Source of the DNA: Xylanimicrobium pachnodae JCM 13526 = NBRC 107786
GTDB lineage: Bacteria; Actinomycetota; Actinomycetes; Actinomycetales; Cellulomonadaceae
Reading direction: 5' to 3'
NCBI GenBank assembly: GCA_001592145.1
Contig: BCWJ01000013.1
Location: 1 to 64,000 of the forward strand
Length of the DNA: 64,000 nucleotides
Positions 35,328 to 46,498 of this stretch are shown here, one piece after another (position 1 is the first letter of the stretch; every line of letters begins with the position of its first letter). A program made the translations under genes and the position numbers. A model generated the notes under the pieces. It did not search any database and had not been told where the DNA came from. It was given only the letters and a program-made list of their open reading frames with translations.

Positions 35328-36794
35328 TTACAGGCCGACAGCAGTTACCCCATACGTTGCCTGATCCTTGGTGAACCCCTCGTACTCCAGTTGCGAGATA
35401 AGACCTTGCCGAGAGAACGCCGCATACTTCAGGTAACTGTCCGCCATTCGCTTCGCCTGGTCGTACCAGTTCGCCCCGGCCGAGTTTGCACCGTGCGAAG
35501 CCTGCGCAGACGTGAAGCCTTCATACTTCAGTTGCGCTACGAGTCCCGACTGCGAGAACGCACCGTACTTCAGGTAGCTCTGGGCGGCGAGCACCGCCTG
35601 CTTGTTCCAGTCGGCACGTTGTGCGTCAACACCGTACGTAGCATCTGACGCCGAGAAACCCTCGTACTCCAACTGCTCAATGAGCCCTTCACGGGAGAAA
35701 GGCCCGTACCTGAGATAGTCGGCCGCCATCTTGCGCGCATTTTGCTGTGCAACAGTCTCCGTGGATGAAGAACCGGGACCAGGCAGAGCGAGCTTGAGGA
35801 ACCTGTCGGCCGTGCTGCCAGGCGCTGCGGCGCTCTTGGTGACGATGCGCACCTGAATGGCCTCAAGTCGCCGCGCGCCACCTTGGGTGCCGGACTCCTG
35901 CCCGTTGCGGGCCCAGCCGAGCCAGCCATGACTCTGCGCGTGGGTTCGGTAATAGACGTCGAACTGGTTCGCCAGGCTGCCCGTGAGCCGCACCTGGATC
36001 GCCTCCACACGAAGTCCAAGTCCGGAGGTGCCGCAGTCCTGCCCGGCGCCGACCCAGTCGCGCCACCCCAGGTTCTGGACGTGCGCCCGGCACTCGATCG
36101 ATCCGCTGCCACCCGCGCCGGGCACAGTGAGACGCAGCGCCTCGACGCGCAGACCACGCCCCGAGGTTCCGGCTGTGGCCCCGTTGGTTACGTTGGGCAT
36201 CCAGCCGATGCTCTGCACGTGGCCGCGGTACGTCACACCCTGCATGAATGGGGTGGCCGTCGCGCCCGGTGCGGCACCACCCCGCGGGATCACCTGCACC
36301 TGGATCGCCTCGACCCGGCGGGCACCTCCCGCCGAACCCGCCGACGTGCCGTTGCTCGCCCAGTCGAGCCAGCCGTATGACTGCACGTGACCTCGGTAGT
36401 AGAGGTCATACTGCGCGGCTAGCTCGCCCGTCAGCCTGAGTTGCACTGCTTCGACCCGCAAACTGCGGCCCGAGGTACCGCACGTCGCGCCGTCCCCGAC
36501 CCAGTTCTGCCATCCGATGCTCTGCACATGGGCACGACACTGAATCCCGCCGGGGACACGCGCGTTCTCCACTTTGAGCTGAAGCGACTCGACCCGCAGT
36601 GACTTCCCGGAGGTACCCGCGGACTGGCCGTCACGTACCCAGTTCTGCCACCCGATCGACTGAACGTGGCCACGGTAGGCAACTGACGGGCCGGTGGCCC
36701 CCGCCGCGGTACCCGCCACGCCCAGGACCACCCCGGTGGCCAATCCGGCCGCGGCGATCAGGGACATCGTTCGATGCCATAGGCGCTGGGTCAT
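35328..36794 (-). CDS. Secreted ChW-repeat / Ltp-domain surface protein
   Basis: A 488-residue protein. A Sec signal peptide covers residues 1 to about 33 (hydrophobic SLIAAAGLATGVVLGVAG, cleavage near AAGA), without a lipobox. Residues about 40-325 are six ChW (hydrophobic W) repeats in two triads; repeats 2 and 5 each hold a C-X18-C pair. Residues 349-488 are three Ltp (host cell surface-exposed lipoprotein) repeats at 47-residue spacing, each with [YF]-X-X-FSR-X-GL-X-X-QL-X-YEGF. Phage Ltp proteins block DNA injection; ChW repeats are found on secreted surface proteins. ATG with AAGGAG 6 nt upstream. A phage-exclusion role is inference. Confidence 0.85.
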   Translation of the reverse strand: MTQRLWHRTMSLIAAAGLATGVVLGVAGTAAGATGPSVAYRGHVQSIGWQNWVRDGQSAGTSGKSLRVESLQLKVENARVPGGIQCRAHVQSIGWQNWVGDGATCGTSGRSLRVEAVQLRLTGELAAQYDLYYRGHVQSYGWLDWASNGTSAGSAGGARRVEAIQVQVIPRGGAAPGATATPFMQGVTYRGHVQSIGWMPNVTNGATAGTSGRGLRVEALRLTVPGAGGSGSIECRAHVQNLGWRDWVGAGQDCGTSGLGLRVEAIQVRLTGSLANQFDVYYRTHAQSHGWLGWARNGQESGTQGGARRLEAIQVRIVTKSAAAPGSTADRFLKLALPGPGSSSTETVAQQNARKMAADYLRYGPFSREGLIEQLEYEGFSASDATYGVDAQRADWNKQAVLAAQSYLKYGAFSQSGLVAQLKYEGFTSAQASHGANSAGANWYDQAKRMADSYLKYAAFSRQGLISQLEYEGFTKDQATYGVTAVGL

Positions 36795-36809
36795 GGTGCG
36801 CTCCTTCTA

Positions 36810-36824
36810 GGTAGGGGCCCTACC
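36810..36824. promoter_or_regulatory. 15-bp palindrome next to the ChW/Ltp ribosome site
   Basis: GGTAGGG-G-CCCTACC is a perfect palindrome with a one-base centre, ending 3 nt upstream of the AAGGAG ribosome site of the ChW/Ltp gene. Possible operator; no regulator known. Confidence 0.4.
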
Positions 36825-37116
36825 CCACCGCAAGCGCGCGCACGGGAATGCGGGCAAGTCGCTCGCCGCTCGTTCCCACCACGCTCGCGCCCGAGCAGAC
36901 CGAAGCCGGCGTGCATAAGCGCAGGTCGATGCGTGAGTGACGTCGATCAGTGGCCCGCTTCACACCCTTTCCTGGCGCCGAATAGACGTGGTGCACCAGG
37001 GCGCAGTCGTCCGCTCACCCAGGTGCGGCCGTCGCGTGAACCTCGTCGCCGCCAGAAGGGTGCGGCTTTCGTGCCCTTTATCTAGATGCCGTTGGTCATC
37101 GACACCGCCAGCCAAA

Positions 37117-44049: not shown

Positions 44050-44055
44050 GAGCAC

Positions 44056-44451
44056 ATGTTGATTCAGGCACTTCTGCTCATCGCCATCGTCGCCGTCGTC
44101 ATCCTGCTCGGGCGCAGCTCCAAGAACGTCAAGCACATGGCGTTCCGACGACTCTTCCTGCTGGCGTTCGCCGCGGCGGCGGTCTTCGCCATCCTGTTCC
44201 CCCACGTACTGACGCAGTTGGCCCAGCTCTTCGGCGTCGGGCGTGGCGCCGATCTGCTCCTCTACGCCCTGGTTGTCGCGTTCGTGGGGTCGCTCGCGAT
44301 GCAGTCACGCAGGGCCACGGAACTCGGACGGATGATCACGCTGAACACCCGCCGGCTGGCCATCCTCGAGGCTGAGACCGAGCTCGGACTCAACTCCGCA
44401 ACGCGTTCGCCGTCGGCCCCGGTGCGGCCGAGCCCTTCGGCAGGAGCCTGA
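44056..44451 (+). CDS. DUF2304 membrane protein (second copy)
   Basis: A 131-residue protein with three hydrophobic segments and an amphipathic helix, as in the copy at 17.9 kb. ATG with AGGAG 3 nt before the gap. The preceding GT2 gene ends 6 nt upstream, so the pair is cotranscribed. The last 62 nt overlap antisense with the 3' end of the SpoIID-like gene; the resulting Ser/Pro-rich tail ([15 protein letters not shown]) looks like translation of that antisense rather than a conserved part. Confidence 0.83.
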   Translation: MLIQALLLIAIVAVVILLGRSSKNVKHMAFRRLFLLAFAAAAVFAILFPHVLTQLAQLFGVGRGADLLLYALVVAFVGSLAMQSRRATELGRMITLNTRRLAILEAETELGLNSATRSPSAPVRPSPSAGA

Positions 44452-46498
44452 TCTCCACCGACTCCGCACGCAGCGACCGCCCCTGTGTTCCTGCGGCGGC
44501 ACCGTTCGTGGCCCAGCCCGACCAGCCCACCTGACGCGAATGCACCCGATACCAGACATCCATCTGGTTCGCGGCCTCGCCCGTGAGGCGCAGTTTGATC
44601 GCCTCGAGCTGCAGGGACCGACCCGTGGTGCCGCACGTGCTGCTCGCTCCGACCCAGCTCCCCCACCCGATGTTCGCCGAGTGCGCGGAGCACTGGATGG
44701 TTCCGGACCACGGCTGACCGTCAGGGAACCGCACCTGGATCGCCTCGATCCGGCGCGACTGACCGGTGGTCCCCGCGAGGGCGCCGTCACGCACCCAACC
44801 CATCCAGCCGAGCGATGCCGCGTGCGCGCGGTACTCGACCGGGCGCGGCTGCGCCACGGTGCCCGGCGCCGGGGACGATGACGGCTGGACGAGGATCTGG
44901 ACGGCCTCGACCCGGCGCCCCTGGCCGGTGGTCCCCGCGGTCGAGCCGTTCGAGGTCCAGTCCTGCCACCCGATCCCCTGGACGTGCGCTCGGTACCAGA
45001 CCGTCATGGTCGAGGCGTCGGCGCCGGTCAACCGGAGCTGGACGGCCTCGAGCTGGCGTCCCTGCCCTGTCGTGCCGCAGGCGTCCGCCCCGGAGACCCA
45101 TCCGAGCCAGCCGAGGCCAGAGACGTTCGCGCGGCATTCCAGCACACCGCCCGAGACCCCCGAGTAGATCGCCGTGATGGCCTCCAGCGCGCGGGACTGC
45201 CCAGTGGTCCCGATCGTGGCGCCCTGCCCTGCCCACGGCAGCCAGCCGATGTTACTGGCGTGCCCCTGAGCCACCACGGTGGGCGGCATCATGTTTGTGG
45301 TGGGCGCCGAGCTCACGATGGAGAACCAGTCGCTCTTGAGGCCCAGCTTGGTGCGCACCTGGTCACCCGTGAAGGTAGTGGTCGACGAGCCGCTCTTCAC
45401 CGTGACCTTCGCGACGCGGCCGCCATCGGACCCGAGCCCGTTGCGCGCGGTGACCTCCATCGACGTGATGGTGCCGACGCCCAGCTTCTTGGCGACATCA
45501 GACGCCTTCAGCGTGGTGGTCCACACACGGTTCGGGTTCAGGGAGACGGCGTCTCCCGCGTCAGGCACCGCAGCGAACGTGCCGCCCGCGGTGTAGCCGC
45601 CTGTCGACGACGAGAACTCGGTGCGCGCGATCGCGTTGCCCAGGCGCATGACCCAGCCGTTGGTGTTGGCGACCGCGGTGTCGGAGAGCGAGTTCTCCTT
45701 GCTGGTGACGGCCCCTGTGGCACTGACGGTCGCCATGCCGCTGTACACCTGGCATGCCGTGGTGTCGCACGTCTTCGCACCCGAGGTGCGCGCCCCACCA
45801 GCCAATGCGTAGCTGCGGGCCGCGACCGCCTGTGCCTGGAGGGCCTGCATGCCCTTGCCGCCGCCCTGGTTGGCCCAGCTCGCCGGCATCTCGCTGGGAA
45901 CCACGGAGCGCAGGTAGTCCTGCGTGTCCAGCACGTTGACCGCATACTGCACGCCGGAGACGACCTTGACGTCGATGCGGCCGCGGTACTGGGTACCCGA
46001 CTCGTCCGTGCTCGACGCCTTGCAGACCTTGAGCACCCGGCTGCCGGTGGTGGTCACCTTCGCGGTACCGGTCACCGTGCCCTTCTTGGTCCAGGGACCG
46101 TTGCAGCTGCCCCCCGCATACCAGTCGATGCTCGAGCCGTTGCGGACCAGCCGCACCGTGGTGTTCCCCGTGCCACCACCGTTGACGTAGATGGCTCCCG
46201 CCTGGATGCGCACGTCCTTGCCGGTGTGCGCCAGGAGTTCCACGCTCATCTCGGGGTTGCCCGCGTTCGTCGCCAGCGTGGCCGGGCTGTAGTAGTGGTT
46301 GAGGATCTGCGGCGTCGACCACCCGTGGTCGACGGCGTACCCGAGCGCGCCGTACTGCCCCATCCCTCGCCCGTGGCCCCACCCGCGGCCCACGAACGTG
46401 AAACCCGCGTCTGCGGCCTGTGCGGGTGCCGCCAGACCCACCGCCGCGGTCACGATTGCGACCACGCACACCGCCAGCCTGCGCACCTGGGTTGTCAT
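44390..46498 (-). CDS. Secreted SpoIID/LytB-domain protein with six ChW repeats
   Basis: A 702-residue exported protein: signal peptide residues 1 to about 29 ([19 protein letters not shown]), then a SpoIID domain at about 30-400 with [24 protein letters not shown] (conserved catalytic Glu of SpoIID lytic transglycosylases), [13 protein letters not shown] and [11 protein letters not shown]5-C pair lies at [10 protein letters not shown]. The last ~290 residues are six ChW repeats in two triads with C-X18-C in repeats 2 and 5. SpoIID cleaves denuded glycan after an amidase has acted, so it may follow the neighbouring amidases. ATG 46498 gives a normal signal peptide. Confidence 0.9.

Follow-up and report, generated by a model that had tools for sequence, protein, structure and literature searches.

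What is the domain in a protein built from ChW repeats: the single repeat, or a group of them? The question is raised by a window of 64,000 nucleotides (positions 1 to 64,000 of contig BCWJ01000013.1) from Xylanimicrobium pachnodae, in which 27 ChW repeats are found on the minus strand, split 6/6/9/6 over the genes A488, B725, C951 and D726 and grouped as nine triads. We propose that the ChW domain is a closed unit of three repeats and about 135 residues, which would act as the wall anchor of peptidoglycan hydrolases and which, in this bacterium, would carry a staple in its middle repeat; we put the probability of this reading at about 0.85. An earlier note on this DNA had suggested that the triad, rather than the repeat, might be the real folding unit. 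This is very probably so and is well supported by computation, with the AlphaFold2 model, the repeat counts, the gap pattern, the couplings between repeats and a circular permutant all pointing the same way.

Counting repeats in threes

The repeats of the window were counted with a single-repeat profile that is blind to triads, and the figures given in the earlier note (27 repeats, with the counts 6, 6, 9 and 6 all multiples of three) were recovered with it. By the same profile, successive repeats start 45–47 residues apart inside a triad and 55–61 residues apart between triads. The Pfam profile PF07538 scores 6, 6, 8 and 6 repeats (26/27); C951 reaches 8/9 with it because one of its copies is degenerate. 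All four proteins exceed the curated PF07538 score, and all 27 repeats belong by sequence to the family catalogued as PF07538, IPR006637 and SM00728. The conserved GW dipeptide and the downstream GT-G and E-A motifs are present, with variation in a few copies, e.g. AW for GW in repeat 4 of C951. The opening motifs described earlier hold as well: C-[RSQ]-A-[HN] opens 9/9 middle repeats, and Y-R-[GASTV]-[HY] opens 17/18 first and third repeats, the lone miss being AQGH in the first repeat of D726. Outside the window, the same genome encodes two further ChW proteins, of 655 amino acids (6 repeats) and 662 amino acids (3 repeats).

The generality of the rule was surveyed in ChW loci taken from genomes of the same phylum, plasmids and phage contigs. 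A total of 170 candidate open reading frames (ORFs) were parsed, and the 868 distinct repeats in them served to rebuild the single-repeat profile used for this. The sample is one of convenience, as genome regions were hand-chosen from match tables and some of the loci nearly duplicate one another. The 148 ORFs that do not run off their locus form the uncut set, and counts divisible by three were found in 98 of them at a strict score cut, in 110 at a lenient cut and in 128 after gap filling, where one hidden copy was counted if two starts lay 85–125 residues apart. The gap-filling rule was picked after seeing the data, and is supported by the triad profile, whose matches extend into these gaps; a detected count of, for example, 8 or 14 often turns out to be 9 or 15 once a single degenerate copy is included. 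After clustering, every member was divisible by three in 101/118 clusters at 70% identity, 39/50 at 50% and 8/12 at 40%. Spacing tells the same story, with all within-triad gaps being smaller than all between-triad gaps in 73 of the 76 ORFs in which at least six repeats were detected and their number was divisible by three. Small proteins with little beyond one triad are also found, as 15 of the 17 uncut ORFs shorter than 270 amino acids hold exactly three repeats.

These counts bear on a first alternative, in which every ChW repeat forms a small domain of its own and the triad is an inherited unit of duplication and nothing else. Duplication by triads would likewise yield multiples of three, and related triads inside single proteins do point to such duplication. 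However, triads that share 29–51% identity with the queries keep to three, both on plasmids of Streptomyces, Enterococcus, Lactococcus and Nostoc and on phage contigs; degenerate copies are retained, not deleted; and the permutant described below preserves three copies by way of two halves. We therefore regard independent repeats as very unlikely. Under the proposal that three repeats close into one domain, copy number would change only in threes.

The earlier note had named relatives with counts not divisible by three as grounds for refuting the idea. The survey does not refute it: 128/148 uncut ORFs are divisible by three and 20/148 are not, of which 15 can be explained (nine of them by eye). 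These nine come from a single genus (g66). One copy is detectable in each, and behind it, in 9/9 cases, lies a C-terminal remainder of 136–147 residues, the size of a triad; two more degenerate copies were read by eye in each remainder, and in L048 and L157 the triad profile covers most of it. In L050 and L051 (5994–7181) the triad profile matches from position 12 to the end. Three ORFs of L123 resemble pieces of two broken 15-repeat genes: at the first break, ORFs of 5 and 10 repeats are parted by one stop, and at the second, an 8-repeat ORF is neighboured by one of 6 repeats that lies in a different frame, the gap from one to the other being of double length. The L123 locus as a whole is a cluster of ChW genes, some of which appear to be broken into adjoining ORFs. 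The fifteenth exception is the circular permutant on contig L068.

Predicted closure of the triad and a circular permutant

A model of the third triad of C951 (39575–40003, minus strand) was predicted by AlphaFold2 with a predicted local distance difference test score (pLDDT) of 95.2 and a predicted template-modelling score (pTM) of 0.88. One strand pattern is repeated three times in this model, the repeats agreeing with one another at 0.93–0.97 of positions. Each repeat would thus supply the same set of strands, and the three would close on one another into a compact all-beta domain with pseudo-three-fold symmetry; tandem triads would then be separate beads joined by short linkers. Conserved motifs at the places where repeats adjoin would form three similar ligand sites. 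Beta-trefoil and beta-prism lectins also have three-fold internal repetition, and it was on size and repetition that the earlier note had likened the triad to them. A Foldseek search with the triad model found no PDB chain at E ≤ 0.001, a negative result that stops short of proof and leaves a known beta-trefoil or beta-prism fold unsupported. The fold is shared by five predicted phage proteins (template-modelling (TM) score 0.71–0.80, 16–34% identity; the next match has an E of 0.14), three of which are annotated as lysin, endolysin or lysozyme.

Co-variation between positions was analysed with mean-field couplings over 330 triads and 133 columns, with an effective number of 258. Within repeats, the same coupled pairs recur in all three, e.g. 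−1/+16 and +3/+23, numbered from the conserved histidine. Between repeats, the top 30 couplings at non-equivalent positions comprise 11 for repeats 3 and 1, 10 for repeats 1 and 2 and 9 for repeats 2 and 3, and the top 100 comprise 34, 33 and 33. Couplings of repeat 3 to repeat 1 are therefore about as frequent as those between neighbours, as expected if the ends of the triad meet.

A further indication is provided by a phage contig (L068), where an ORF at 5458–6435 encodes the second half of a ChW repeat, two full repeats and the first half of a repeat, followed by a stop. A repeat of the choline-binding type runs directly into this arrangement. The two halves sum to one repeat, and the start-to-start distances of 45, 46 and 45 equal the within-triad value. 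AlphaFold2 predicted the protein with a pLDDT of 89.2 (residues 1–11 below 50) and a pTM of 0.84, and its two halves have complementary predicted strands. In Foldseek, it matched the same five viral proteins as the triad of the window (TM score 0.49–0.65), with a root-mean-square deviation (rmsd) of 2.0–3.2 for three of them. This model is not evidence separate from the triad family, since the alignment behind it contained natural tandem segments with the same arrangement. We interpret the protein as a circular permutant of the triad that is predicted to fold alike, and its layout would make sense only if the N- and C-terminal halves meet.

The same data speak to a second alternative, an open array of three repeats in which three copies are merely preferred. 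Closure in three dimensions is our interpretation, and the direction control of the coupling analysis does not discriminate, both of which leave room for an open array. On the other side, co-variation links repeats 3 and 1 at about the same frequency as adjacent repeats, the permutant is sensible only with its terminal halves meeting, and longer arrays are split into threes by wider gaps. We consider an open array most improbable.

Several observations weigh against a closed triad as the ChW domain, and are best taken together. Five of the 20 deviating counts are unexplained, namely L123 5089–8160 (10 repeats, with relatives that have 12 and 9), L058 (5), L117 (5), L120 (2) and L159 (2), and at 40% identity only eight of the twelve clusters are free of exceptions. 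The ten strongest inter-repeat couplings include only 2 for repeats 3 and 1, as against 4 for each neighbouring pair. In the direction test, the Pearson correlation was 0.26 for the closing pair vs 0.21 for the reversed control, and the rank correlation 0.17 vs 0.20. Couplings can also be mimicked by homogenisation between repeats. The permutant comes from a single metagenomic contig and fits two of the five phage proteins poorly (rmsd 7.6 and 11.4). Finally, AlphaFold2 confidence is a different thing from a solved structure.

A more detailed picture can be drawn, to which we give somewhat less than an even chance. The ChW triad may be an all-beta fold without a solved representative, in the form of a closed ring of three identical strand sets, with three near-equivalent ligand pockets lined by the conserved H, GT-G and E motifs at the repeat junctions. 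Each triad would then be a three-valent wall binder and the anchors of the window six- or nine-valent, and the ring would have been opened and joined again at another point at least once in a phage.

The cysteine pair of the middle repeat

The earlier note had reported a C-X18-C pair in every middle repeat of the window, and this is borne out, with nine occurrences in four proteins, one per triad. Each triad has two cysteines, both belonging to this pair, and no further cysteine. Gene A488 (35328–36794, as all those that follow on the minus strand) encodes two ChW triads and then three Lipoprotein_Ltp (PF07553) repeats; triad 1 lies at 36258–36683 (cysteine codons 36537–36539 and 36480–36482) and triad 2 at 35808–36236 (36090–36092 and 36033–36035). 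In B725 (37226–39403), an Amidase_2 (PGRP-like) domain is followed by triad 1 at 37670–38095 (codons 37949–37951 and 37892–37894) and triad 2 at 37229–37651 (37499–37501 and 37442–37444). Gene C951 (39551–42406; 951 amino acids) encodes an Amidase_2 domain and then three triads: triad 1 at 40484–40912 (codons 40763–40765 and 40706–40708), triad 2 at 40034–40465 (40313–40315 and 40256–40258), whose degenerate first repeat has no Pfam score, and triad 3, the one modelled above (39854–39856 and 39797–39799). D726 (44390–46570; 726 amino acids) consists of a SpoIID domain and two triads, at 44855–45280 (codons 45134–45136 and 45077–45079) and 44411–44842 (44690–44692 and 44633–44635).

Beyond the window the pattern narrows quickly. 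The 655-amino-acid protein of the same genome has the pair in both middle repeats, and the rule is broken once in this genome, as the middle repeat of the 662-amino-acid protein has neither cysteine. Among the 330 triads, both cysteines occur in 12, i.e. the nine of the window, two of the 655-amino-acid protein and one from an Atopobiaceae metagenome-assembled genome (L037), while a lone cysteine is found at the first position (column 47) in 4 and at the second (column 66) in 7. A pattern search for C-X18-C-G[TS] returned 13 of 1112 detected repeats, comprising the same 12 and one in L045 (8301–11114) from another genome; the pair is not restricted to middle repeats, since the L045 copy is, by position, the first of its last triad. 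The pair thus characterises this genome, where it is missing once, and is not a general rule of ChW repeats.

The disulfide clamp suggested earlier for the middle repeat is plausible in this bacterium, since its two positions show contact-like co-variation even when the cysteine-bearing triads are left out: with the 23 triads that have a cysteine at either position removed, columns 47 and 66 still come 13th among 8256 pairs. The most economical reading, plausible from the alignment, is that a disulfide staples a contact found throughout the family. In this bacterium it would very likely join the first strand of the middle repeat to the strand preceding the GT[ST]G motif.

Alternatively, the cysteines could be free thiols, or a metal or lipid site. 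Lone cysteines at one of the two positions in other triads would fit such a role. Against it, the triads of the window hold precisely these two cysteines and none besides, a protein of the same genome (C12) is without both together, the two positions co-vary in the absence of cysteine, and the proteins are secreted, judging by eye from their N-termini. Cysteines of secreted proteins are usually oxidised. A role other than a disulfide is unlikely in our view.

Cysteines are placed differently elsewhere in the family. Small single-triad proteins (L047, L055, L057, L149 and L152, with L055 and L057 coming from Streptomyces plasmids and the others from genomes) have cysteines at sites other than those of the window pair, possibly a separate disulfide solution. 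Six related triads in L136, L143, L144 and L145 have one cysteine in repeat 1 (column 33) and one in repeat 3 (column 120), which possibly bridge these two repeats. A Nostoc plasmid protein that is a single triad (L056, 3857–4408) has a lone cysteine before the GT-type motif in each repeat.

Probable wall anchoring and earlier work on ChW domains

The domain partners of the triads in the window are Amidase_2 (twice), SpoIID (once) and the Ltp repeats of the fourth protein. Ten relatives were scanned, some of which have NlpC/P60, C39, CotH or Amidase_2 domains, and others ChW alone. Weak ChW-like matches were also seen on plasmid records of the Gram-negative genus Azospirillum (H60 and H61), in genes annotated as glycosyltransferase. 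The neighbours of the ChW genes (29625–50301 of the window) include glycosyltransferases, two ABC-2 exporters (one with Wzt_C), DUF6541 and an RmlB-like dehydratase, and the region is apparently a cell-surface polysaccharide locus. The most likely role of the ChW triads is to keep enzymes that remodel the wall (two amidases and a SpoIID-type protein), and also the Ltp-repeat protein, attached to the wall of the cell that makes them, wall binding itself being deduced.

Phages offer parallels. The ChW domain of a phage endolysin (CL1) binds lactic acid bacteria, with peptidoglycan proposed as the ligand, and its binding was raised by an acid treatment that strips surface material (PMC10610939). 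A ChW-like domain of a lactococcal phage (cAM12) gave surface display, with its target described as unclear (PMC6700490). As in the window, ChW is joined to wall hydrolases in these proteins, and for them surface binding has been shown; in contrast to the window, they concern lactic acid bacteria, and the passages on them give no definition of a triad.

The higher-order rule had been thought undescribed by the earlier note, but according to a 2018 review (PMC5817068) it had been suggested by Sullivan et al., 2007, for C. acetobutylicum, that ChW domains associate in triplets. The same review dates the first description of ChW proteins to 2001, and the part of it that deals with them gives neither structure nor ligand for the domain. 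What is shared with that suggestion is ChW domains in threes; the review's passage presents the triplets as serving surface interaction, and makes no mention of a fold, closure, a permutant or a cysteine pair. A computed model of a ChW protein was tabulated without a PDB match by Bassot and Elofsson, 2021 (PMC8078820), whose main text mentions ChW once and has no section on it. A literature search, confined to titles and the starts of abstracts among the matches listed and covering few subscription papers, yielded no description of the triad fold. The triplet idea itself is thus not wholly new, and what is added here is the domain definition, the predicted closed unit, the permutant and the staple. 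Where the PF07538 unit is 35 residues, the unit proposed here is three repeats, with the cysteine pair in the lineage of the window.

If the domain is the triad, then counts made repeat by repeat and constructs made from single repeats mislead. With correct boundaries, constructs could be designed for crystallography, ligand screening and surface display, and closure could be tested with material that nature already provides, namely the permutant and the natural cysteine pair.

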